IMG/VR virus record: IMGVR_UViG_3300045996_000148
Coordinates: 1-24,509 of that record
DNA length: 24,509 nucleotides
Strand: one strand, 5' to 3'
Origin: a virus
In this document: piece after piece, positions 1-12,217 of the stretch
Layout of the letters: the number at the start of each line of letters is the position of its first letter
How positions within the stretch are numbered: the stretch's first letter is position 1
Made by a program: the position numbers and the translations under genes
The notes under the pieces: model-generated
Database searches by the model: none
Told to the model about the DNA's origin: nothing
Seen by the model: the letters and a program-made list of their open reading frames with translations, nothing else

Positions 1-2842
1 CGCGCACCGCCGTTACCCGCACCCGCGCAATGTTCGAAGCGCCGAACACCGACCGGGGAAGATCGAAGGATGATCCGGCGATACCGGACTCCGTTGTGAT
101 CAGCGCATTCGTCACCGCGTCATAGACCTTGATGCGGGTGGTCTGCCCTGTCTCCGGCGTCACCCCGGCGGCTGTCCAGCCGAGCACCTGAGTATTTTCC
201 AGCAACCGGTTGCGGTTGGCCCAAGTGATCGGCACCGGATCGATCGCGGTTGCGTCAAGAGTGCCGAAACCCACCGTGCCCGCCTTGACGTTCGCCGGGC
301 GCAACGGCAAGTGCGGGCGCTCGGTCAGCGTCTCAGTGATCACAGGCGCCAGGGAAAGATCGAGCATGCCCCGGCTGGTGATGGTCTGAACCTGATAGCT
401 CACCGTCTGAAGCGCCGATTGTGCGGTATCATCCTGCACGCGAAGGCCACTGCTGACGAACCATACCGGCGTGCCAGCCGCCCAGGCGCGCGGAACCGTG
501 TCGAGCACGCCCCGGCTGACGGTCCAGGCCGGATCGACATAGCCGGTGATCAGACCGATTTCCGCCGTGCCCTCATTCGCCGCCCCTTCGCCGATCAGGA
601 CGAAACCACCGATCATCGGGCCGGTGCCCTGCGTCATGCCGCTGAAGGTGACGGCGGACTCCGCCTGCGCCGGCAAGGCATCGGTGAGGGTGCCGCGCGA
701 GACGATATCCTTGGTGCCGGCACCGTCCATGACCGCGTTGCCGGCCGGGTCAACGTCAGGCCCGACAAGCTCGAACGTGTCGGTATCCGTCCCGGTCTGC
801 GCGGCGAGCACGCCCGCGAACACGTCGGGATAGGCCGCGCCGGCAAGCGCCGTGCTGTCCACTGCCATGTTCGCCCAAAAATACGGGAGCGTCAGGATTT
901 CCGTATAGGCGGCAGGCGCCGGATCTTCACTCGGGTCCGTCCACGCCGTTTCCGGCGGCACTTCGTAAGCCGGCACCGGCAGGCTGAATATGTCCTCCAG
1001 CAAAGACAGCTTGATCGTAGGCTCGCCCGGGCGGCCGTAATCGACCTGCATAATCCGCATGACCATCTCGGCTATCCCGTACTCGGGATAGGCAAGCTTG
1101 ACCACGCCGCCCGGGACAAAGGCCCATGCCGTCCGATCCACTTCAGCGTCACAAGATGCCAAAGGTGCGCTCGCCGTGGCGATATCGCGGGCCGCCAGTT
1201 TCGCCGCGTTGGCGCGCGATCTAACGCCATAGTAATTGCGGCCATCCGAGATAATGGAGCCCTGCACGGCAATGCCGCCCAAGTCCTGCATGGTGACCGT
1301 CTCATCCTGTTCGTTGACGGGATTTGTCCAGGTCACGATGATTTCGTTGATCGTCTCTGCCGGCGACTTCCTTTGAAAATTCGATATTTCGGCGTTGTCC
1401 TCATCGATCACGGGCAGATCGGCCGCCACGTAATCGCCCCGGATCAGCTTAAGCGTGATGAGCCCGGTCGCGGGATTTACGAAGAGAGTCCCGTTGATGT
1501 GATTCAGGACTTCAGTGATAAAATCTTCGATCGCCGCCTGCCGGGTCCAGATCATCGAAAGGCCCAAGCCTTCCGCATAGAGCGTATCCGCCGCCGCCGT
1601 AAAAGACGTCAGATCCAGGGCGGCGCTTGACGTGCCCATGCCCCAATCCGAGTCCGTGAGGCAGTTGTGGATGATGTGCGCCGGATTGCTGTCGGGCAGG
1701 CCGGCACCCCCGAAAAGCGCCTTTTCGATCGCAGCAACCAGCGGCGCCGGATCGGCACTGGTGATCACCGGTACGCCGTCTTCCGGCGTGTTGTCCAGCT
1801 TGGCGGTATGGGTGGTGACGCCCAACACCACATTCATGGCGTGACAGTCGACCGATGTTCCGGCCGCCGTGTTATAGCTTCCGCCATCGCGCGAGAGCAT
1901 ATCCGCGATCGTGGCGGCGGCGGCATCCGACGAGTCTCCCGGCTCACCGTCCGTCAAAAAGATAAAAATGCGCTTCTGAATCGTGGTGTCGGCGAGTGAG
2001 GCGTCAAACCACGCCTTCGCACCATCGGCCGCCACGCCGAAATAGGTCCCTCCCGTGGTGACGCGCGCCGCTGTCCAGGTCCGAAGCGCCGCCGCATTGG
2101 CCGTGGTCAGATGCGTATAGCTGGTCTGCGTGGCAGACCATGACCAGAAATTGATGGCGATATCCAGATCCACGCCACCGGCACCAACCGCCGCCTCGAC
2201 ACGGGCCAGCACGGTATCAAGCGCCGATTTGGTCACTGCCAGGCGGCTTGCCGGCGAGCCGGAATCAACAATGTCCATGGAGCCGGATGCGTCAACGGCG
2301 ATATAGACACTGGCCCGCCCCGACAGGCCGGTGCCGATGATCGCTTTCTCAGGATACCACGTCTTCGGACAACGGGTGACCTGAGCCCAAATCGGCCTCA
2401 AGTACGGAGTGTTGCTTGTCCAGAAAAACCCCTTGCGCTCGCGGAACACCCTCGGCTGGACCTGAACTAGACTAAGGGCGCTCCCGCCGGTCAGGTTGGA
2501 CGCGATCACATGCTCGGTGAAGAACAGAGACGCGATGCCGCGAAACCCCGGGCACGTCAGCGCCGCTCGACCGAGCTTGCCGGCGAGAAAGGTACTGAGG
2601 ATCTGAGAAGGACCGCCGGGCAGGTAATGGATGGCGCCCATCACGCCACCCTCTTTCTTGACGTCGCCGAACAGATCGAGCCGGGTCACGTTGAACGCTG
2701 TCGCATCGGCCGTCTGAGTTGAAAGCGCCTGCTTCTCGCCGACCCACACCGCGCGCAAGGCATCCACCGGCCCGGTGCAGATGCCGACATGCATGCTCAT
2801 TCGGTAATCGACAACTTGTTGCTTAGGTGACTTACTTCCCAT
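1..2842 (-). CDS. J-like tail-tip / host-specificity protein with an inserted VWA domain (partial, C-terminus beyond window)
   Basis: An uninterrupted frame runs from ATG at 2842 to the window edge (947 codons, no stop). The start has GGAG 7 nt upstream and overlaps the preceding gene by 11 nt. Residues 1-167 look like the N-terminal part of phage tail-hub/J-like proteins (PKQVVDYRM, then GGPSQ, PGFRG, NTPYLRP and WYPEKA at 162-167). Residues about 177-378 are a VWA domain. The hub resumes at N386 with NPAHIIHNCLTDSDWGMG and a long block containing SMIW, NEIIVTW and MVMRIMQVDYG, followed by beta-rich repeats. The protein should form the baseplate hub/central tip and contact the receptor. Last gene of the tail cluster here, at the J position of lambda. 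Family assignment is from recognised motifs; the adhesion role of the VWA insert is inferred. Confidence 0.85.
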   Translation of the reverse strand, partial: MGSKSPKQQVVDYRMSMHVGICTGPVDALRAVWVGEKQALSTQTADATAFNVTRLDLFGDVKKEGGVMGAIHYLPGGPSQILSTFLAGKLGRAALTCPGFRGIASLFFTEHVIASNLTGGSALSLVQVQPRVFRERKGFFWTSNTPYLRPIWAQVTRCPKTWYPEKAIIGTGLSGRASVYIAVDASGSMDIVDSGSPASRLAVTKSALDTVLARVEAAVGAGGVDLDIAINFWSWSATQTSYTHLTTANAAALRTWTAARVTTGGTYFGVAADGAKAWFDASLADTTIQKRIFIFLTDGEPGDSSDAAAATIADMLSRDGGSYNTAAGTSVDCHAMNVVLGVTTHTAKLDNTPEDGVPVITSADPAPLVAAIEKALFGGAGLPDSNPAHIIHNCLTDSDWGMGTSSAALDLTSFTAAADTLYAEGLGLSMIWTRQAAIEDFITEVLNHINGTLFVNPATGLITLKLIRGDYVAADLPVIDEDNAEISNFQRKSPAETINEIIVTWTNPVNEQDETVTMQDLGGIAVQGSIISDGRNYYGVRSRANAAKLAARDIATASAPLASCDAEVDRTAWAFVPGGVVKLAYPEYGIAEMVMRIMQVDYGRPGEPTIKLSLLEDIFSLPVPAYEVPPETAWTDPSEDPAPAAYTEILTLPYFWANMAVDSTALAGAAYPDVFAGVLAAQTGTDTDTFELVGPDVDPAGNAVMDGAGTKDIVSRGTLTDALPAQAESAVTFSGMTQGTGPMIGGFVLIGEGAANEGTAEIGLITGYVDPAWTVSRGVLDTVPRAWAAGTPVWFVSSGLRVQDDTAQSALQTVSYQVQTITSRGMLDLSLAPVITETLTERPHLPLRPANVKAGTVGFGTLDATAIDPVPITWANRNRLLENTQVLGWTAAGVTPETGQTTRIKVYDAVTNALITTESGIAGSSFDLPRSVFGASNIARVRVTAVR
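1709..2314 (-). other. von Willebrand factor A (VWA) domain inside the tail-tip protein
   Basis: Residues about 177-378 of the tail-tip protein. The first strand (SVYIAVD) runs into the MIDAS motif D184-A-S186-G-S188. The third MIDAS element is T266 in TTGGTYFG. The fourth is D298 in FIFLTDGEPGD, at the end of a hydrophobic strand. A later strand (AMNVVLGV) and a terminal helix (PLVAAIEKAL) complete the expected alternating alpha/beta order. All five metal-site residues of a classical VWA are present, so divalent-metal-dependent ligand binding is plausible. The domain is bounded by WYPEKA upstream and NPAHII downstream, which read as neighbouring blocks of the ordinary tail-hub protein. This suggests insertion into a surface loop. 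Confidence 0.9.
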
Positions 2843-3053
2843 TCTGGCGCTCCAGCGTGCGACGGATCACTTGCTCGGCCAAGCCGTCACCGATGGCCAA
2901 AACCCGCCGGGCGGAAATGCCATCGCGCAGGAAAGCGCGAAAATCCAGGCCGTGCCCTTCGAACCAATCGCGCGCACCCCGGGCGCAATGACCGGCCGCG
3001 CGCACGTCATTTATGGTGATGATCATATGCTCAGTGCGCGTATCGTTCATCAT
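2832..3053 (-). CDS. Small hypothetical tail-tip-cluster protein (73 aa)
   Basis: Predicted 73-residue soluble protein beginning MMNDTRT, with a second in-frame ATG at 3050. Its start overlaps the stop of the 80-residue gene by 4 nt (ATGA), and its stop lies 11 nt inside the tail-tip gene, so it is translationally coupled on both sides. The body is compact and mixed in charge (NDVRAAGHCARGARDWFEGH, then GDGLAEQVIRR), with one cysteine, no transmembrane segment and no signal peptide. I do not recognise a named family. Its place between the L-position and J-like genes suggests a tail-tip assembly factor or small structural subunit, roughly where lambda carries K and I; that is inference from position only. 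Confidence 0.75.
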   Translation of the reverse strand: MMNDTRTEHMIITINDVRAAGHCARGARDWFEGHGLDFRAFLRDGISARRVLAIGDGLAEQVIRRTLERQNGK

Positions 3054-3292
3054 ACCTTGACCTGATACTCGGCTTTGTTCTTATCGCCATACCATAATAC
3101 ATTCAATCCCTTGACGGTGATCGTGCCGAAAATGACCGGCACCGGGCGGCCCGCTTCGGCTGTCGGGTTATCCAAGTCGCTCGTTTCGGGCGGTTTTTCC
3201 GGCTTCGGTTTCGGCATGATCGCGTAGGCAATCAAGCTGATGACAACCGCGATGGCGATTTGGACTAGAACAGCAACGAGCGTGATTGCCAT
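3050..3292 (-). CDS. Small tail-cluster protein with an N-terminal membrane segment (80 aa)
   Basis: Starts with ATG at 3292, preceded by GAGGT 6 nt upstream, 9 nt after the stop of the L-position gene. Residues about 2-26 form a long hydrophobic segment (ITLVAVLVQIAIAVVISLIA), followed by a proline/lysine-rich linker (PKPKPEKPP). The conserved-looking C-terminal half contains GRPVPVIFGTITVKG and NVLWYGD. The GRP-PVIFGT-NVLW pattern resembles small proteins found beside tail-tip genes in other phages, but I cannot name a family. The hydrophobic N-terminus could insert into the host membrane during ejection, anchor an assembly intermediate, or pack inside the tail tip. It overlaps the next gene by 4 nt. 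Confidence 0.75.
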   Translation of the reverse strand: MAITLVAVLVQIAIAVVISLIAYAIMPKPKPEKPPETSDLDNPTAEAGRPVPVIFGTITVKGLNVLWYGDKNKAEYQVKV

Positions 3293-3301
3293 GGCGGGAC
3301 C

Positions 3302-4153
3302 TCAATAGAACTGGTTGGCATAGCCAATGGGATTGACGGTCGGAATCCAGGGTTGCCCGCCGTAATTCACGATGTTGGACAGGCCGGTGCCCGTCTCGAC
3401 AAAGAGGTTCTGGCAATCGTCCATGGTGTGAGCGCAGCCGAGCGACACCAGGAGCGCCGTGCCGACAGAAAGCCCGATCGGCAAGCCGTTGATCGTCAAA
3501 CCGTTGCCGATCACCCGCATGATGGTGCGGATTTCCGTGTTGCCCTCGGGAGTCGTCCACTCCAGAAGTCCGCCGGCATACTTCGCCGCCGCTCGCGCGC
3601 CGTTCCATCCGGCCGGCAGGGTGACGACATTGCCGGCGATGCTGGAAACGGTTGATGAAGTGGTGGCGGCCGTGCGGTTGGCCTTGCACATCGGCCCATA
3701 GAGCGCGTGCATGCATCCGTACTGGTAATGCCGGCGGAGCCCCGGGCGCCGCATCGATGTGCTGACCGGCTCACATGACAAGACAGCCTGATTGCCGGTG
3801 CGGCTGATGTTGATGACGCGACCAACCCATATCGCCGGCCAGTCGGTTTCACCGACATGCCCTTGGCGCACGATCACCACGACAATTCGAGTGGGTGCGT
3901 AAAGCTTATACAGGTCAGCCAGGCCGCTTGTGGTCGGAAGCTGGATATCGAGCACCGCCTTGTCCAAGGTCCCTTGGGTGGCAATGCTGCCGCGCATGAT
4001 GGGAAGCGGCTGATACGCCACCCCATCGAAGGTGACCAGTTGCTCGGCATCGGTATACGCGAAGTAGGCCGCATCGTCCTCGCCATAGGCGAAATGATAC
4101 AGCGTGGCCGGCGTGCCCTGCGCCCGACTGAGTTCCTTGGCTTCAAATGTCAT
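3302..4153 (-). CDS. L-position minor tail protein, phage BR0599 / DUF2163-like family
   Basis: 283 residues. The N-terminal half (residues about 15-135) reads like the DUF2163-type beta fold (HFAYGEDDAAYFAYTDAE, VGRVINISR). The C-terminal half carries two diagnostic cysteine pairs: C147 and C156 (GCMHALYGPMCK), and C240 and C247 (GCAHTMDDCQNLF). The family tail motif follows (NYGGQPWIP-NP). Lambda gpL at the same map position binds an iron-sulfur cluster through cysteines, so these four may be ligands; that is inference. It joins the Dit-position protein to the tip hub in assembly order. It overlaps the upstream gene by one nucleotide (TGATG), implying translational coupling. Confidence 0.85.
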   Translation of the reverse strand: MTFEAKELSRAQGTPATLYHFAYGEDDAAYFAYTDAEQLVTFDGVAYQPLPIMRGSIATQGTLDKAVLDIQLPTTSGLADLYKLYAPTRIVVVIVRQGHVGETDWPAIWVGRVINISRTGNQAVLSCEPVSTSMRRPGLRRHYQYGCMHALYGPMCKANRTAATTSSTVSSIAGNVVTLPAGWNGARAAAKYAGGLLEWTTPEGNTEIRTIMRVIGNGLTINGLPIGLSVGTALLVSLGCAHTMDDCQNLFVETGTGLSNIVNYGGQPWIPTVNPIGYANQFY

Positions 4154-5340
4154 CAGACGCCCCCCAGGTCTTCAAGCGTGCGGATCGGGAGCACGTATTG
4201 CGCAACGGTGCGGGTCAGCCACTCAACGGTGATGCTGTCCGATGCCAACCGGCAGACCGGGCACCAGGAGATTGACCGGATGCCGCTCGGCGCCACGGTC
4301 ACCGGCCAGGCGCTTACCATCGTCGCTTGACTGTTGCCGGCGACATTGGCCCACGATGAGATGCGGTTCAGGAGCACGGAGCCATCGGCGAGCGTCACGG
4401 CGACGGCACGGCGCACCGTGTCACTCCCATGCATGAGATGCCAGTTTGCCCCCGGAAGCGTCATGGTGCTGGCGCCGCCGGTCAAGGCGACGGCCGGCAG
4501 ATCCGCCGTCAGGTTCGGCATGTAAAACTCGCCCTGCTGCCCGCGCATGCGAGCGGCGAACTGAGTCACCTCCCGGGCTTCTGCCGGCGAGCGCGCGACA
4601 TAGGTTGCCCGGGTGGCGTTGGTGCGGTAATCGCGTGGCGTCGAATAGACGGCCCGGCCGAACCCGAAATCCAGCCGCTCAACATACGCCTCGAAATCGA
4701 TCTGCGGCTGATCGGCCCAATTCGGCCGGCGCAAGAAAACTTCCCGACCGTTCAGGACCGTGCCCACCGCGCCCGGGTCCATAGTTACGTTGAATCCAGG
4801 TTCCACGTTTAAACGGACTGACACCTCGGCTACCGTGTTGGTCTGCTGCTTACTGCTGATCACATCAGCCGCCCGGCACGTCACGGCCGGGTGGAGCCGG
4901 GAGCCGGCGACGAACGATGCGGCGGTGCTATCGGTCAGGGTGACCAGCAAGGCCACGATCGTATCGACCTGGACAAGCTCGATCGCCTGCCCGCGCGACA
5001 GGACGCACAACGCGCCATCCGTCAGCCACGGCGGCACACTATCGACATTGAAGGTGGTCGCCGGGGAAGCCAGCGGCGTTGTCAGCATGACGGATTCGGC
5101 GGGATGCGCCGCTTGGAAGGCATCGGCTTGTCGGTAGGACATGGCGCGCGACCATGTTTGATACCGGTCGCCGGTCAACAGGCCCGTGTATTCGAAGCTC
5201 ACCCGTGGCGACTGGCGCAAGGCCCGCCGCTGTTCCCGGCCCGATCGGGACGTAATGATTTCCGTCCGCCATTCGTGAAGCTCATTGACGGATTCCCGCC
5301 AGTTGGGCGCCGCCGGCCACAAGAGGGATTGATCAGGCAT
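4153..5340 (-). CDS. Minor tail / distal tail protein (M/Dit position), 395 aa
   Basis: Directly follows the tape measure gene (one-nucleotide TGATG overlap) and precedes the BR0599-like gene, the slot of lambda gpM or the distal tail protein of other siphoviruses. The N-terminus has a characteristic PNWRESVNELHEWRTEI segment and an SGREQRRALR stretch. The middle is predicted beta-rich (NVEPGFNVTM, VFLRRPNWADQP), and a CPVC pair occurs near residues 350-355 close to the C-terminus. No membrane segment or enzyme motif is visible. It probably forms the ring that connects the tube/tape measure to the tip complex. Assignment rests mainly on gene order and the N-terminal pattern; an exact family name is not claimed. 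Confidence 0.75.
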   Translation of the reverse strand: MPDQSLLWPAAPNWRESVNELHEWRTEIITSRSGREQRRALRQSPRVSFEYTGLLTGDRYQTWSRAMSYRQADAFQAAHPAESVMLTTPLASPATTFNVDSVPPWLTDGALCVLSRGQAIELVQVDTIVALLVTLTDSTAASFVAGSRLHPAVTCRAADVISSKQQTNTVAEVSVRLNVEPGFNVTMDPGAVGTVLNGREVFLRRPNWADQPQIDFEAYVERLDFGFGRAVYSTPRDYRTNATRATYVARSPAEAREVTQFAARMRGQQGEFYMPNLTADLPAVALTGGASTMTLPGANWHLMHGSDTVRRAVAVTLADGSVLLNRISSWANVAGNSQATMVSAWPVTVAPSGIRSISWCPVCRLASDSITVEWLTRTVAQYVLPIRTLEDLGGV

Positions 5341-8300
5341 CAGCCAAGCGCCTGCTTGAACGCGCCGGGATTGGCGCGAACGAAATTCAGGATGGCCCGC
5401 TCACCGACCTTGCTATTCAACGCAGCCTCCAGGAACGAAGCGGTATCGAACGCATTGACGATTTTCGGTGTCATGGCGGGTGCCGCGTTGTTGTTGTCGG
5501 CCGCCTGCCCGATATTGAAACGGTGCCGGGGATCGCTGCTGGTCAGCACTTCCTCCCCGCGCTCCAAAATTGTAGGAACCTCATTCGGCCGCAACCCTGC
5601 AATGCCGCCGTTGTGGTACTGGACAGCGTTGGCAAACCACATGGGGCTTACCTGCCGGGACCGGTTGGAAGATCCGGCGATACCGCCGCTATGATTGGCC
5701 GCCACGCCGAAGGTGCCCGGGAAGGCTGTCTTGAGAGCATTCAAAATGACGGTTTGGATGATCATTTGCGCGATCATCCTCAGAAAATCGGACGCAAACT
5801 GAAGGAAGGCATCGCGCGCCGCCGCAAACGCCGACTGCCCTTCAACCACTTTCTGAGCGAAGGAGTCGAAGGCGTTTGCCAGGCCGCCGGCCGCATACTC
5901 GCCAACTTCCTTCCACCGGATGAGCGCCTGCTGGCCGCTGGTTTGGGTGGTGACGGCCATGGTCCTGAGCTTGGCGATTGCCGCGTCAGCCGCCGGCCCG
6001 CCGATCGCTTCCCACATGGCGATGGCTTGCTGGATCGCCAAAGCCAGTTGCCCGTTGATGGCGAGAATGGCTTGATATGTCGCGTCTTCGGCCGCCGTGT
6101 CGCCGGTCTGCTGCGCAAGCTCGTATTGCTCGCGCAACTCATTGCGCAAGGCAATCAGCTTGTCGACCTTTTCATTGGCGAGTTCGTGCGCCTTGGTCTG
6201 ATCGAACAGCGCGGCCGTGCTATCGATGATCGCCTGCCGGTCGGCTTGCTCAAGAATGACCTTATCCTTGATCGCCTTCTGTTCGGCTTCCCGGATTGCC
6301 GCATTGATGGCGGCCTGTTTCTCCAGGCCGGCATTGGTGAGTCTGGTCTGTTCCGCTTCGAACAGCCGGTCCTCATTACCGCGCCGCACCTCTTCGTTGA
6401 ATTTGACCTGTGCATCAACGCTCTTGTCCTGGAGCTTAACCACCTCCTGAACCATGGCCACCTGAGCATCGGTGATGCCCATTTTCTCGGTCGCGTAGCC
6501 GATCACATCGCCGACCGATTTGCCCTTGAGAACGGTGGGGTTGCTCTCGATCGCCTTGTCCGACAGCAAGCCCTTGACCGGCGCGTTCGGATCTTCGGCG
6601 AACTTCTTCAGCACTTTGACCGCGCCGTTCGGCCCCAGGAAATGCGCCAGATACAGCGCCGCCTCACTGACGGCCAGGCCGGCATCCTGGAGCACTTTGG
6701 CATTCTCGGTCGCATACGCCTCGACCAGCTTTTTACTGAGAGCCGCATCCTTGCGAAGCTCCAGCATCATAGGCTCGGTCATGCCGGCAGCACGTTCCGG
6801 GAAATACTGCTTGAACAGCGCGAGCCAGGTTTTTTCGATGAACTGGCCGGCACCCGTGGCGGTGCTGACGTTGTTCTTCGCCAGCGCCCGCCCGCCGCTT
6901 TCAACTGCAACTATTTTATCGACAATCGCTTTTGCGATTTTCTCGGCCGCTTCCGCGTTGATGCCGGCCCGCGCCTCATCCCGGGTCCGGTCCAGCAACG
7001 CCACCTCTTCCGGCGTTTTCGCGTTCAGCTTCGCCGCATTATATAAGGTGTCGATTTCCTGGAGATCCTTGAGCCGCTTCATCTCCACGGAGATACCGGG
7101 GATGGCGGCCTTGATCTGATCCAGCGATGCCTTGAACTTCTTCGCGGCTTCCTGCGCCCGGGCCAGGGCGCCCGCCGCGTCATCGGTGCTGCCGCCGAGC
7201 CCGAGCAACTTCATCTGCGTGTCGCTGGCCGTACCGTTCAGGACGGCAAGCACCGCTTCCGCCTTGGCGATATTCACCTCGGCGACGGCCGCATTATCGG
7301 CGGCCTCCAGGAAACTCACCGCAACGGCCTGTTTGAACGCCGGGTTGGCCTGCGCCAGCGCGTCGATACGGGCCTTGAAATCAATCGCGCTGATGGTGCC
7401 TTTCTTGAACCCGGCAAGCAGTGCTTCGATTTCCCGGCGAACGGGGAGGGTCACCCGGCCGAGCCCGCCAAAGAACGGCACATCGGTATCGTCGCGGATA
7501 TCCTGAAGTTCTTCCCGTAGCTTGGCCAGGTTGGCGACAGCCTGAGTCGTGCTCGACTTGGCGATTTCCGCCGCCCAATCCTTGACCGCTCCGCCCGCCT
7601 TATCATAGGCGTTCTTCACTTGATCGAGGATCTTCTGATGGCTGTTAAGGGCTTCCGTGGCCTTGTCGGCTTGGGTTGCCCATGCGCCGATCGCAATCGA
7701 AATGCCGGTGATCAACAGCCCAATGCCGGTACTCGACACCAGGGCGAGGATCGCGGCCCGCAAGCCAAGCATGGCGGTTGTCAGCACCCCGACCGAAGCG
7801 GCGGACGTCCGCGCCGCCGTCGCCACACCGGTAAGCTGCGCCGGAGTCTTGGCCAGGTTGGTATACAGGGCGCTGAACTGCGCCCCAAGGGCGAGGATGA
7901 ACGGCGTGATCTTGACGCCGATAACCGCCATCATCGCGGCCACCAGCAAATCAAAATGCCGGATCGCGGCCGACAGCAAATCCATCAGCCCGCCGAGTAC
8001 CACACCCACCCGCTTGAAAAACGCTTCGGCATCGGCACTGGAAAGCGCCTTGTTGAGTTCCCGGATCGTTTCGGTGAACTTCTCAATGAAGGTGCTGGCG
8101 CCGATCGTCAGCAACGCCTTGAATGAAGCGTTCTCCAGCTTGCCGAGTTCAGTAGACGTGGATTTCAGGGCTTCCGGCAGAGATGAGCCGAACCGCCGAT
8201 CGAGCGCGTCAGCGAACCCGATCAGGGCGGTGCTCGATACCTGCCCTTGCTCCATCATCTTAATCAGAACGTCAACGCCAACGCCCAGGCCATCGGCCAT

Positions 8301-10259
8301 CAACTGCACGGCGCCCGGCAACCTATCGCCCAATTGCTGCCGCAATTCCTCCATTTGCACGGCGGATTTTCCGGCGATTTGCGACAAAGCCGTGAAAATG
8401 CCCTGCAACTGTTCTAGCGAAAGTTTATTGACCCGCCCGGCTTCCGCGACCGAGATAAAGACGTCCTTGGTCTTCTGGCCTTCAAGCACCGTGCCCTTGG
8501 TTGAGACGGCGAACTTGGTGTACTGATCGGCCAAAGCGCCGAACTGAATACCAAGCCGGTCAGCCGTGCGCCGGATGAAATCAAGTTCTTCCGCGATTAC
8601 CGACTTGTCGCCCTGCGCGATCACGTTAAGCCGGGACTGCGCGGCTTCTAACGTGCGAAAGGCGCTGACGACATTACCGATGCCCTGCACGGCCGCATAC
8701 AAGCCGACATAGCTTGTGGTCAGCGCCAGGACTTCGCCCCGGAGCCGCTGAGTCCAACTCATCGCGGTACGGGACTCGCCGTACAGCGCGCGAAGTGCCG
8801 ATGCGAAGGAATAAGTCTGCGCGCTGGCCTGCCCCATGCCGCTCCCGGCCGCCCGGGCGCCAGCACCAACCGCGTTCAGACCGGCGCCGGCCGCACTGGC
8901 TCCAGCCCCTAGTCCGCGTTGCGCCGCCCCGGTGGAAGCGGCGTCCTGCCGGATGCGGGCGAGGGCGGCGGCCACGGCGTTCTGCGCGGCGGCGAACCGT
9001 TCCTGCTGCTGCCGAAGGGTGTCAACGTCAGTGCCGGTCTGACGAAGCGCCTGCCCCATGCCGTTCAGGCCGGTGCGCTGCGCGAGGTATTCCGCCTTGG
9101 CCTGCGCGGCGGCGGCCCGGGCGCGTTCGAAAGCGGCCGTCAGGGCGGCATTCGGCTCCGTCGTCTTGGCTATCTGCTGCGCCAGATCCTTGACGGCGCC
9201 TTGAGCCGTCTGCCACTCCCGGCGGGTTTCCAGCATCGCCCGGCGTTGCGCGTCAAAACTGCGTTGCAGGGTGGCAGTCGACCCGGCGGCGAGCTTGGCC
9301 ATGGCGGCATCGGCCTGTGTCGCCGAAACGGCCAACTGCTGAAACTCGGATTCCGCCTTGTTGAGAGCGGCATTCTCCCGATCGAGGGCGGTTGCCGCTT
9401 CCTCGGCGGCACCCTTAAGCTGCTTCTGAGACAGGGCCGCCGTCCGCACGGCCGCCTGCATCTCCTTATAGGACTGCGCCGCCCGGGCGAGCGCCGTTGA
9501 CTGCTGTTCGAAGGTCGCGGCGGCTGTGGAAAGCTCACCCTGGAGACGGTTGATCGTCCCGCCGGTCGCCGCCGCCTGAGTCCGCGTTTCGGCCAACCGC
9601 TCATTCAACGCGGTGAGCTTGGCTTTCTTCTTCTCCAGGCTCTCGCCCGCCGCCTCGACCGCGCTCTTGAGGGTCTGTGTCGGCCGTGCTGCGGCGGCAA
9701 GCTCCGTCTTGTACCGCTCCAGCCGCTCGGCAACCCGTGTGATCGCCGCTTCCTGCTTGGCAATCGCCTCGACCGTGCGCGTCTCCGCCCGGTGCAATTT
9801 CTCGCGCTCGGCCGTCGACTGGCGGAGGGCTTGATTAAGCTCGGTCTGCGCCTGTTTGGATGCGGCCACGGTCTGCTGCTGCGCCTTGACGGCCGCACCG
9901 CTGGCTTCCGTTTCTGTACGCAGTTTGGCCGTCGCCGTCGCCGCTTCGGCCGCCTGTTTCTCAAGCTGATCAAGGGCCGCCGCCGCCTTGCGACTCTCGC
10001 CGGCCAGGCGGCTTGTCGCCTGGAATGCCCGGTCAAGCTCGCCCGCGATCTTGGCGGCGCCCGACTCACCCTTGAACTTCTTTTGCAGATCGGTAAGCGC
10101 GATACCCAGGCGGGTAAGGGCGGTGTCCGTTTTACCGGCGCTGACTCCGATGGTGTTCTGCGCGTCAACAAGGGACTTCAGCGCATCCTTGACGCTATCG
10201 ACGGCCTTACTTGCTTCGTTCTTAGCCCTGATGACTAACTCAACGTCTTTTTTAGCCAT
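5340..10259 (-). CDS. Tape measure protein with embedded transglycosylase-like domain (1639 aa)
   Basis: Start ATG at 10259 has GAGGG 9 nt upstream and lies 5 nt after the frameshift extension stop, as expected for lambda H after GT. Residues about 1-440 are Ala/Gln/Glu/Lys-rich coiled coil. Residues about 500-700 match the tape-measure domain (EELDFIRRTADRLGIQFGAL, QMEELRQQLGDRLPGAVQLM). Hydrophobic segments lie near 766-866. Residues about 1110-1260 form a lysozyme/transglycosylase-like domain with candidate catalytic Glu1120 in AVESGGRA and the motif TATGAGQFI. More helical repeats and a C-terminal region with several GG/NHSGG turns follow. The protein sets tail length, fills the tube and probably opens peptidoglycan during ejection. 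Lambda H is about 850 residues, so this tail should be much longer. Confidence 0.93.
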   Translation of the reverse strand: MAKKDVELVIRAKNEASKAVDSVKDALKSLVDAQNTIGVSAGKTDTALTRLGIALTDLQKKFKGESGAAKIAGELDRAFQATSRLAGESRKAAAALDQLEKQAAEAATATAKLRTETEASGAAVKAQQQTVAASKQAQTELNQALRQSTAEREKLHRAETRTVEAIAKQEAAITRVAERLERYKTELAAAARPTQTLKSAVEAAGESLEKKKAKLTALNERLAETRTQAAATGGTINRLQGELSTAAATFEQQSTALARAAQSYKEMQAAVRTAALSQKQLKGAAEEAATALDRENAALNKAESEFQQLAVSATQADAAMAKLAAGSTATLQRSFDAQRRAMLETRREWQTAQGAVKDLAQQIAKTTEPNAALTAAFERARAAAAQAKAEYLAQRTGLNGMGQALRQTGTDVDTLRQQQERFAAAQNAVAAALARIRQDAASTGAAQRGLGAGASAAGAGLNAVGAGARAAGSGMGQASAQTYSFASALRALYGESRTAMSWTQRLRGEVLALTTSYVGLYAAVQGIGNVVSAFRTLEAAQSRLNVIAQGDKSVIAEELDFIRRTADRLGIQFGALADQYTKFAVSTKGTVLEGQKTKDVFISVAEAGRVNKLSLEQLQGIFTALSQIAGKSAVQMEELRQQLGDRLPGAVQLMADGLGVGVDVLIKMMEQGQVSSTALIGFADALDRRFGSSLPEALKSTSTELGKLENASFKALLTIGASTFIEKFTETIRELNKALSSADAEAFFKRVGVVLGGLMDLLSAAIRHFDLLVAAMMAVIGVKITPFILALGAQFSALYTNLAKTPAQLTGVATAARTSAASVGVLTTAMLGLRAAILALVSSTGIGLLITGISIAIGAWATQADKATEALNSHQKILDQVKNAYDKAGGAVKDWAAEIAKSSTTQAVANLAKLREELQDIRDDTDVPFFGGLGRVTLPVRREIEALLAGFKKGTISAIDFKARIDALAQANPAFKQAVAVSFLEAADNAAVAEVNIAKAEAVLAVLNGTASDTQMKLLGLGGSTDDAAGALARAQEAAKKFKASLDQIKAAIPGISVEMKRLKDLQEIDTLYNAAKLNAKTPEEVALLDRTRDEARAGINAEAAEKIAKAIVDKIVAVESGGRALAKNNVSTATGAGQFIEKTWLALFKQYFPERAAGMTEPMMLELRKDAALSKKLVEAYATENAKVLQDAGLAVSEAALYLAHFLGPNGAVKVLKKFAEDPNAPVKGLLSDKAIESNPTVLKGKSVGDVIGYATEKMGITDAQVAMVQEVVKLQDKSVDAQVKFNEEVRRGNEDRLFEAEQTRLTNAGLEKQAAINAAIREAEQKAIKDKVILEQADRQAIIDSTAALFDQTKAHELANEKVDKLIALRNELREQYELAQQTGDTAAEDATYQAILAINGQLALAIQQAIAMWEAIGGPAADAAIAKLRTMAVTTQTSGQQALIRWKEVGEYAAGGLANAFDSFAQKVVEGQSAFAAARDAFLQFASDFLRMIAQMIIQTVILNALKTAFPGTFGVAANHSGGIAGSSNRSRQVSPMWFANAVQYHNGGIAGLRPNEVPTILERGEEVLTSSDPRHRFNIGQAADNNNAAPAMTPKIVNAFDTASFLEAALNSKVGERAILNFVRANPGAFKQALG

Positions 10260-10264
10260 CAGGA

Positions 10265-10938
10265 TCAGCCCTCATTCAAGCGGTTCACAGTCTCGCGGAA
10301 CAGCTTGCCCGCTTCTTTCGATAGGACACTGGAGACGGCCATTTGCAACAGCGTGGCGCGGGTAGCCTCCAGATGGTTGATATGTCGTACCACAATTGCG
10401 GCCTCATCCCAAACCATACCGAGAGGGTAATTTTGCGCTTCAGTGTGCCCATTAGCCAACAAGAGGGAGACTTGTGTTCGAAGCCCCCACACCCACGCCT
10501 TCAGCGTCAGCGGTTCAGGCTGTTGAGAAGATTCGTGGTCCCGGTTGCGGCTCTTATGACCGTCTCGACTACTTTTTTTAGGTCTTGATCCGTGGCGAAG
10601 GTGTGGCCCATCAACAGATCAAGCGCCTCGACCTGGACCGGCAGAGGCAAAGTGCGAACAATATCAACAGCTTCCGGCTCACCCGCCGCGAGCGCGATCA
10701 TCTCACTGGCGGCATCCGGTGCTATCTCCAACAAAGTGCGGCCCATGGTCGCCATGTCGGCCGGCGGCATACCGTCTTCGCCCTGCCGGATGAACCGATC
10801 GAACAGAAGGGTCATGGCGGCGCCGTGGTGGCGGACCAAGGCGCTTATGTCCTGGAGGGACAGGCCCCGCACGGCGAATGAATCGCCGCCCGGGACCGTC
10901 ACACTGGAGGACGGCAATCGAAGATCGCGCAGCCCCAT
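10265..10938 (-). CDS. Tail assembly chaperone, frameshifted long form (GT-like fusion, 224 aa)
   Basis: Ribosomes reading the G-like gene that slip back one base at A-AAA-AAA (10573-10579) continue through an open -1 frame to the TGA at 10265. The product is 122 residues of the short form plus 102 new residues beginning SSRDGHKSRNR. The T-like extension contains AWVWGLRTQVSLLLANGH and YPLGMVWDEA, typical of tail-chaperone T domains, and has no start with a convincing ribosome site of its own. In lambda the G:GT ratio matters, and GT links the tape measure to tube subunits. Gene order (tube protein, chaperones, tape measure) is the same here. The length of the open -1 frame and the perfect slippery heptamer are directly visible; expression in vivo is inferred. 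Confidence 0.85.
10507..10938 (-). CDS. Tail assembly chaperone, short form (G-like, 143 aa)
   Basis: Starts with an ATG overlapping the tail tube stop by one nucleotide (TAATG). The 143-residue protein begins MGLRDLRLPSSSVTVPGG and continues FAVRGLSLQDISALVRHHG, a pattern common in siphovirus tail assembly chaperones. It is then mostly helical and ends NLLNSLNR. It is expected to coat the tape measure during tail assembly and to be absent from finished virions. The slippery heptamer lies 22 codons before its stop, giving the longer GT-like product described separately. Confidence 0.85.
   Translation of the reverse strand: MGLRDLRLPSSSVTVPGGDSFAVRGLSLQDISALVRHHGAAMTLLFDRFIRQGEDGMPPADMATMGRTLLEIAPDAASEMIALAAGEPEAVDIVRTLPLPVQVEALDLLMGHTFATDQDLKKVVETVIRAATGTTNLLNSLNR
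10573..10579 (-). promoter_or_regulatory. Programmed -1 ribosomal frameshift heptamer (A AAA AAA, followed by G)
   Basis: On the coding strand the G-like frame reads CTA AAA AAA GTA. This places A-AAA-AAA in the X-XXY-YYZ register needed for a simultaneous -1 slip of both tRNAs. The -1 frame stays open for 102 codons downstream and encodes a T-like chaperone domain. Position, phase and neighbours match the lambda G/GT signal, although lambda uses G-GGA-AAG. I did not identify a convincing downstream stimulatory stem-loop or pseudoknot by eye. Confidence 0.85.
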
Positions 10939-11705
10939 TACAGCGGCCGACCGTCAACATAGATCGCTTCGGCGAATGTGGGCTTAAGCGCCTCAATCGA
11001 GAAGGGAATTGTCTGCCACTCATCCCCCTTAAGCGCGTAATCTCCGTTCGGGGTGACTTTAATCCATGGCATGATGTAGTCCTTATTCTCGCCTTTCGGG
11101 TTGTTGGCGATGTACCGCAAGGCGCCCTCAACCGGAGTCGAGCCCGAGATGACTCGGGTGCGCGTGCTGGACAGCACGGCATAGGTCACGGTCAGATCGT
11201 CGCCACTGACGATGGCGCCGCCGGCAATAATCTCAAGCATACCGGTGTCCGTATTGATCCGGTAATCGGTGTTGAGAACATGCGTGGTCGCGCCCGTGGC
11301 GACGGTTAGGCCGGTCGGGTTGATCTTGCGATGGCCCACGGGATTCGCCGTCGTCAAGCCAAGCTGGTAAAACATGCCCGGCACCACATCGGTAAGAGTA
11401 TAGCCGGTGCTGGCAACGGCGGACTGAGTCAGCACCGAAGCACTGCCGAAAAAGAACAACGCGGTATTTTCAGGACTGATGTTGTCGGTCGTGAATGATC
11501 CGGTGCGGGTGGTTTCCAGCGGAACGCTATCATCCTTCTCGCGGATACCGGCATCCGACGAATAGTGATCCAGCGTCTCGCTTTCGATCGTCAGGCTGAA
11601 CTCAGGCGTGTTGCCGATGTAAAGGTAACCGGCCGGTGTTTGGGTGCCAGGAAGGAAACGGCTGAAGTAAACCATGCCGCGCCCAAGCGTGTAGTTCTGT
11701 GCCAT
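10938..11705 (-). CDS. Major tail tube protein (255 aa)
   Basis: ATG at 11705 is preceded by a strong AGGAG 6 nt upstream, suiting a highly expressed structural protein. The sequence is beta-rich and lacks hydrophobic segments: YTLGRGMVYFSRF at the start, a typical tube core (GNTPEFSLTIESETLDHYSS), a middle insertion (residues about 120-190, including TGLTVATGATTHV) and a C-terminal strand set ending AIYVDGRPL. It lies between the tail terminator and the chaperone pair, the position of lambda V. It polymerises around the tape measure into the tail tube. Assignment is secure from position and pattern; the exact subfamily is not claimed. Confidence 0.85.
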   Translation of the reverse strand: MAQNYTLGRGMVYFSRFLPGTQTPAGYLYIGNTPEFSLTIESETLDHYSSDAGIREKDDSVPLETTRTGSFTTDNISPENTALFFFGSASVLTQSAVASTGYTLTDVVPGMFYQLGLTTANPVGHRKINPTGLTVATGATTHVLNTDYRINTDTGMLEIIAGGAIVSGDDLTVTYAVLSSTRTRVISGSTPVEGALRYIANNPKGENKDYIMPWIKVTPNGDYALKGDEWQTIPFSIEALKPTFAEAIYVDGRPL

Positions 11706-11728
11706 CTTTATCTCCTATAGTCGCACGA

Positions 11729-12217
11729 TCACGCAAACGGATCGGCTAAGTCCTCAACCATGTCGATTACTAACGATAACCAGAAGTAAGCCTTTGCGCT
11801 CACTTCATCGGGCGGGCGAACAACACCCGGCCCAATTCGAATATTCGAGATTTCTCTCATCCCGAATGCGGTTCCGTCGTTGACCCGCCGCTTTTCTTGC
11901 GCGAGCCGGCGCTTGACGTCGGCCATCAGCACATGCGCGGGATCGGTCGGATTCCTGAAATCATCCTCGACAAACCCTTGAATCATCAGGTCCCACCCGC
12001 CGGCCAAATCCTTGCTGTCGCGCGGCGAAACAAGCTGATCCAGCGGCAACGGCACCTCCAGGATGCTCACCATCGGGATAGGATCGCGCTCGCCGAAGAT
12101 GATCCGGCCGCGATAGACCCGCCCGGCAAGATCGGTCTGATAGCCGCCGGCTACGCTGATTTCTTCAAGCGCCGCCGTGAGCGCCTTCAGAACCTTCAAG
12201 CGGAAGGGATCAGGCAT
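11729..12217 (-). CDS. Tail terminator / completion protein (U position, 162 aa)
   Basis: ATG at 12217 has GGAG 9 nt upstream and comes 3 nt after the Z-like stop. The protein starts with an amphipathic helix (FRLKVLKALTAALEEIS), followed by strands (GRVYRGRIIFGERDPIPMVSILEVP), a central GGWDLMIQGFVED block and a C-terminal AYFWLSLVIDMVEDL strand. This helix-then-sheet order fits tail terminator proteins that cap the tube and allow head joining. Location immediately before the tube protein matches lambda U. No enzymatic motif or membrane segment is seen. Function is assigned by synteny plus general fold pattern. Confidence 0.72.
   Translation of the reverse strand: MPDPFRLKVLKALTAALEEISVAGGYQTDLAGRVYRGRIIFGERDPIPMVSILEVPLPLDQLVSPRDSKDLAGGWDLMIQGFVEDDFRNPTDPAHVLMADVKRRLAQEKRRVNDGTAFGMREISNIRIGPGVVRPPDEVSAKAYFWLSLVIDMVEDLADPFA

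Follow-up and report, generated by a model that had tools for sequence, protein, structure and literature searches.

A VWA domain inserted in a J-like tail hub protein, and its relatives in neighbouring phage tail-tip genes

The window analysed here, comprising the whole 24,509 nucleotides of IMG/VR record IMGVR_UViG_3300045996_000148, encodes at one end a large tail-tip protein, within which the original prediction placed a complete von Willebrand factor type A (VWA) domain with its metal site (MIDAS). The questions raised by this locus are whether the block is a VWA domain set between consecutive parts of a tail hub, how widely such domains occur in tail-tip proteins, and what they may do there.

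The tail hub protein and its inserted domain

The gene order of the window is that of J-type tails, with the genes for the tape measure protein, the distal tail protein, the gpL-like hub protein and small proteins followed by that for the J-like protein. The principal features are as follows:

2–2842, minus strand: J-like tail hub or tip protein, with ATG at 2842, 947 amino acids and the 3' end truncated at the edge of the contig
2330–2842, minus strand: N-terminal hub block, residues 1–171, ending WYPEKAIIGTG, from alignment with Chi and JBD30 over residues 1–116 and alignment of 12 relatives
1694–2329, minus strand: predicted inserted VWA domain, residues 172–383, from AlphaFold2, Foldseek and Pfam VWA_2, and missing from RcIroh, Chi and JBD30
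983–1690, minus strand: second hub block, residues 385–620, beginning NPAHII, from the Phage-tail_3 domain and alignments with Chi, JBD30 and lambda
3302–4153, minus strand: gpL-like hub protein (DUF2163/TIGR02218 type), 283 amino acids, VWA-free in the window, from phrog_778, phrog_15205, TIGR02218, Chi 8vjh_D and JBD30 8rk3_g
4153–5340, minus strand: distal tail protein (D), 395 amino acids, VWA-free in the window, from 8vjh_B ('Distal tail protein', E=2e-21) and 8rk3_U

The J reading frame is still open where the window and the virus record both end, and its C-terminal region, in the place of the central fibre or receptor-binding part, lies past the contig end. The protein matches two PHROG hub families (phrog_1101, E=5e-201; phrog_6284, E=8e-171) and, in the PDB, the hubs of Chi (8vjh_A, E=1e-75) and JBD30 (8rk3_o, E=1e-58). 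Pfam searching placed Phage-tail_3 (PF13550) at residues 433–601 (E=7e-13), and the second hub block aligns with Chi from residue 160, with JBD30 from 150 and with lambda J from 268. On the basis of homology across both hub blocks, the J protein can be assigned as a tail hub of the lambda-J/Chi/JBD30 type. A megablast search with positions 1–12000 of the window gave no match.

Among the other genes of the window, the tape measure protein (5340–10259, minus strand, 1639 amino acids) contains a transglycosylase-like stretch at residues 846–1329 (phrog_4067), while a small open reading frame between the gpL-like and J genes (3050–3292, minus strand) has a strongly hydrophobic start (MAITLVAVLVQIAIAVVISLIAY), like lambda gene I.

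Approximately 210 residues of the window J protein are without counterpart in both the phrog_1101 and phrog_6284 alignments. The Chi and JBD30 hubs align to window residues 1–116 and resume at 383–385, and in Rhodobacter phage RcIroh, a VWA-free relative, a short linker joins the two hub flanks. These PHROG gaps, hub alignments and linker place the borders of the block near residues 171 and 383, identify it as an indel separating two hub blocks that are otherwise contiguous, and bear out the earlier reading of its flanks as consecutive parts of the hub.

The fold of the block was approached through an AlphaFold2 monomer model of J residues 1–634, based on 36 aligned sequences. The mean pLDDT was 84, with values mostly between 85 and 96 in the VWA part, where strands and helices alternate over residues 176–376 in VWA order. 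In Foldseek the whole model aligned to the Chi and JBD30 hubs and was also paired with RcTitan A0A0K1LKT9, while the inserted part matched the integrin alpha-1 I domain (E=2e-6, target TM 0.69), with further matches to the LapA VWA, BatB and SpaC. The inserted block is confidently predicted by this model to adopt the alpha/beta, Rossmann-like VWA fold. Pfam VWA_2 is matched weakly by the entire protein (E=0.0019, 19.3 bits against a 27-bit cut-off), and by the window domain alone at E=9.6e-5 (23.4 bits, under the 27-bit curated cut-off), while 26 of the 27 relatives match this family, with a best E=3e-13. A profile of the VWA subfamily, compared with the PDB, matched collagen VI, LapA-type, BatB, TRAP and integrin I domains. 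Because the window copy is divergent, a VWA_2 search of the virus record itself returned no match; a search of virus-contig proteins with the window protein alone likewise found nothing, and an alignment query was needed. The two results bearing most directly on the original prediction, namely a predicted VWA fold and insert-free relatives in which the flanks adjoin, both came out in its favour.

The five metal-site residues initially pointed out lie in one frame with the right order and spacing, and the domain span of 1709–2314 corresponds exactly to residues 177–378. The metal site and a second motif of the domain are located as follows:

2279–2293, minus strand: MIDAS motif DASGS, with D184, S186 and S188 (first codon bases 2293, 2287 and 2281), invariant across copies
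2045–2047, minus strand: MIDAS T266 (first codon base 2047), invariant across copies
1949–1951, minus strand: MIDAS D298, within TDGEP (first codon base 1951), invariant across copies
1775–1795, minus strand: DNTPEDG motif, J residues 350–356, near-invariant in the aligned tail-tip VWAs

All five MIDAS residues are unchanged in 48/48 J-type, 11/11 L-type and 3/3 D-type copies with letters at those columns, and a looser motif count gave 143/143 copies. Across 27 J, L and D copies with 29–40 % identity to the window only 13 columns are invariant, the five MIDAS residues among them. The same residues are fixed in eleven tail-tip proteins at 31–34 % identity, an invariance that argues for the complete MIDAS (DxSxS, T, D) being more than a chance match. 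Almost as conserved is D-[N/T]-T-x-x-D-G, which lies between strands 5 and 6; the DNTPEDG of the window apparently takes the place of helix 6 of I domains.

Occurrence in three tail-tip genes

The same VWA subfamily is also found in two neighbouring tail-tip genes, an aspect absent from the original prediction. The gpL-like N-terminus is fused to it in six of eleven related phages (alignment; phrog_15205), while in relatives the distal tail protein holds it at four alternative positions, recognised by homology to VWA-free copies. These are the N-terminus (L138, L142), after residue ~98 (L015, L143, L149, L156), after residue ~178 (L118, L116, L109, L151, L202, with RcMotherGoose gp22 near there) and the C-terminus (L199, L205). 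Each candidate distal-tail carrier gene that was checked proved to be genuinely homologous, and the VWA in it was cleanly delimited. The subfamily as a whole is found in three consecutive tail-tip genes and at six positions (J internal, L N-terminus and four in D), and structures are available for the Chi and JBD30 tail-tip homologues of all three carriers. A weak 'VWA' match in the distal tail protein of L038 was discarded, as it has no MIDAS.

Other features of these two proteins were also observed. In nine relatives (L036, L033, L023, L028, L032, L063, L078, L085, L088) the distal tail N-terminus is ~165 residues longer than in the window; Chi and JBD30 share this extension, which represents another optional block. 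The spaced cysteines common to the gpL-like family are retained in the window protein; cysteines of this kind ligate an iron-sulphur cluster in lambda gpL.

In a virus survey seeded by the DNTPxDGV motif, for which the best 80 of 165 matches were taken, the VWA occurred in one of the three tail-tip genes in 71/71 newly read virus loci, with J as carrier in 65, the distal tail protein in 13 and L in six, some loci having it in two genes. In eight genomes of Rhodobacterales and related hosts, the tail VWA copies scored 199–223 bits and other VWAs 20–31 bits, with the exception of a Maritimibacter genome (G008). There a divergent tail copy, split in two pieces, gave 102 and 62 bits, and a separate frame scored 60 bits. 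The subfamily was thus found only in tail-tip genes in this motif-seeded survey, and is far from the host VWAs in seven of the eight genomes. The separate Maritimibacter frame, of 1480 amino acids (G008:C59:404596-405165), contains a weaker relative of the tail-tip VWA.

The content of the J site varies among relatives. In 86 relatives, a sample seeded with VWA-bearing proteins and whose proportions are not prevalences, the site holds a VWA in 51, another insert in 15 and is empty in 20, and from such comparisons the insertion point can be described as a domain-swap site. On a tree built from the second hub block, the VWA label must change at least five times, with VWA, other-insert and empty relatives interleaved around the window. 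When a tree is built from the VWA domain, the window copy falls with two copies of L015, those in J and in the distal tail protein (97/82). The latter two are sisters (100/97), which suggests that the VWA was copied between genes of this one phage, although the program flagged the branches as long. In every distance band, the mean divergence of the VWA exceeds that of the hub; for example, a mean hub identity of 67 % is accompanied by 53 % in the VWA, while the window and L012 share 63 % in the hub and 32 % in the VWA. The lowest VWA identities between copies are ~19–30 %.

The other J-site inserts (~120–360 residues; L014, L016, L017, L018, L020, L022, L024, L026, L029, L078, L084, L087) gave no matches in Pfam. 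By eye only, some resemble beta-propellers, with an apparently all-beta, repetitive make-up; a structure model of one (L018/L020/L024/L017 type) had a pLDDT of 36.

Candidate roles at the tail tip

The tail-tip VWA probably serves as a reusable module with which these phages take hold of the host cell. More specifically, it is rather likely to represent a portable, tip-specific, integrin I-like module for metal-dependent adhesion to the host surface, as suggested by the predicted fold, invariant MIDAS, clean insertion, recruitment into three genes and faster divergence than the hub. Since the domain is optional, repeatedly grafted and fast-diverging, with a metal site that is never lost, it appears to be a binding module under selection for a metal-dependent ligand. 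The VWA sits at the swap site of the J hub, where by homology with JBD30 there would be three copies per tail, and its MIDAS would face outward at the tip and carry Mg2+ or Mn2+, which may contact an acidic or carboxylate-bearing ligand. This ligand could be a feature of the bacterial surface, such as a pilus, outer-membrane protein or polysaccharide, and the contact would work alongside other receptor-binding parts. MIDAS VWA adhesins are found in bacterium-bacterium contact, for example Bd0875 of Bdellovibrio (PMC11003981). Of the two roles originally suggested, metal-dependent adhesion and control of hub opening, the former is the best supported of the candidate mechanisms, though the binding of metal, the outward position of the MIDAS, the class of ligand and adhesion itself are all putative. 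However, weak constraint would likewise make the VWA diverge faster, and a VWA in three tip proteins could equally serve contacts within the tip. A broader proposal, put forward tentatively and with more doubt than conviction, is that a siphophage lineage has built an integrin-like metal-dependent tip adhesion from one virus-specific VWA subfamily, in three proteins and at six graft sites, sometimes in two proteins of a single virion, directed at a conserved acidic target of the host envelope and possibly with a conformational switch coupling grip or force to tip opening.

Contacts within the tip are the basis of the main alternative, which gives the VWA a structural or regulatory role inside the tip. 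Its MIDAS would clamp an acidic residue of another tip or tape-measure protein, either to stabilise the tip or to act as a trigger opening in response to contact or force. The three carriers adjoin in one small assembly with copies at six positions around it, the MIDAS is conserved more strictly than a contact with varying receptors might require, MIDAS proteins have been proposed as force sensors (PMC11003981), and the VWA/MIDAS binds protein partners in machines such as Rea1 (PMC6624252). This internal role is nevertheless unlikely, if deserving of serious consideration, as the VWA is optional, with close relatives that have the same three genes but no VWA or other inserts there, and many VWA-free homologues belong to functional phages. 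Furthermore, the varied positions suit a peripheral ornament more than a fixed internal clamp, and the VWA outpaces the hub in divergence. That the domain is purely a structural ornament, spread by recombination and passively kept with no present binding role, would agree with its patchy distribution and repeated insertion, but is improbable in that loss of the MIDAS would be expected where selection is absent, and no losses occur among the scorable copies despite identities of ~19–30 %.

VWA domains also occur in intracellular assembly. MoxR-VWA pairs are proposed to act in the assembly of jumbo phage virions, and such pairs are also reported from an archaeal virus (PMC7824862). A co-chaperone-like function restricted to tail assembly has little likelihood here, however, given that the VWA is fused inside virion parts and not a separate co-chaperone, and that no MoxR-type ATPase turned up among those genes of the window, an incomplete fragment, to which an identity could be given. 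The virus record, at 24,509 bases, may itself be a fragment, but the chance that the architecture is a chimeric assembly or annotation artefact is negligible. The same architecture and boundaries are found in ten phage genomes of annotated collections and dozens of independent contigs, while the block and the rest of the gene have the same G+C content (62.7 % both) and a similar third-position G+C (72 % versus 74–75 %). These two lines of evidence, architecture and base composition, led to rejection of an assembly artefact as the source of the VWA-in-hub arrangement.

Comparison with known systems

Domain insertion in tail hubs and VWA labels in databases are known already, whereas a VWA subfamily across three tip genes with an invariant metal site appears not to have been described in the open-access literature. 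The Chi and JBD30 hubs (PDB 8vjh chain A, 8rk3) share both flanking blocks with the window, as well as the neighbouring distal tail and gpL-like proteins, but contain no VWA, their aligned blocks being only ~35–45 residues apart. Lambda gpJ is likewise similar, with NNMAW...RYGMG (residue 268 on) matching NPAHII...WGMG after the VWA. Its N-terminal region holds an inserted FNIII-A at residues 72–215 (PMC10721106); this insert, however, is fibronectin-like and by alignment appears to precede the VWA position, and gpJ has neither VWA nor MIDAS. The HDII-ins domains are further known tail-hub insertions (PMC13243795).

The same VWA at the same J site is present in Bordetella phage MW2, in phages of Stenotrophomonas, Xanthomonas, Variovorax and Erythrobacter, and in Pseudomonas phage PaMx28. 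These proteins are 31–34 % identical overall, and in several of the phages, unlike the window, the gpL-like protein bears a second VWA. The MW2 homologue is labelled 'von Willebrand factor type A' in GenBank, and RcTitan A0A0K1LKT9 'VWFA domain-containing protein' in UniProt. Rhodobacter Titanvirus RcMotherGoose gp22 has the same VWA subfamily and MIDAS in a tail-tip protein, but here the domain is carried by the distal tail protein, and the J hub has none. The VWAs of Vi01-like, N4-like and jumbo phages are annotated as genes in their own right. The original suggestion that no described system pairs this domain with this hub holds for the open-access literature, in that no description of a VWA on siphophage tail tips was found there and the Mesyanzhinovviridae paper does not mention a VWA, but it does not extend to sequence databases, where MW2 is labelled and the architecture occurs in many phages. 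The VWA provides a sequence mark for likely contact modules among 'minor tail protein' and 'hypothetical' entries, and its role is testable in cultured phages, including the Rhodobacter Titanvirus, Stenotrophomonas phages and Pseudomonas PaMx28.

Integrin alpha I, the LapA VWA, the SpaC pilus adhesin and Bd0875 share the VWA fold with the phage copies. The first three have a MIDAS of the DxSxS type. A MIDAS of this type is also present in Bd0875 (PMC11003981). All four are cell-surface adhesins, in contrast to the virion parts considered here, and DNTPxDG between strands 5 and 6 is a feature of the phage copies. Optional binding modules on tip scaffolds are also found in the 'evolved Dit' of Gram-positive phages, distal tail proteins decorated with carbohydrate-binding modules. 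Similarly, gp49 of JBD30 bears oligosaccharide-binding domains (PMC11445458). These are beta-type carbohydrate binders, however, whereas the metal-dependent VWA is common to three genes. Optional carbohydrate-binding tip modules being known, an integrin-type metal-dependent VWA points to a second attachment chemistry.
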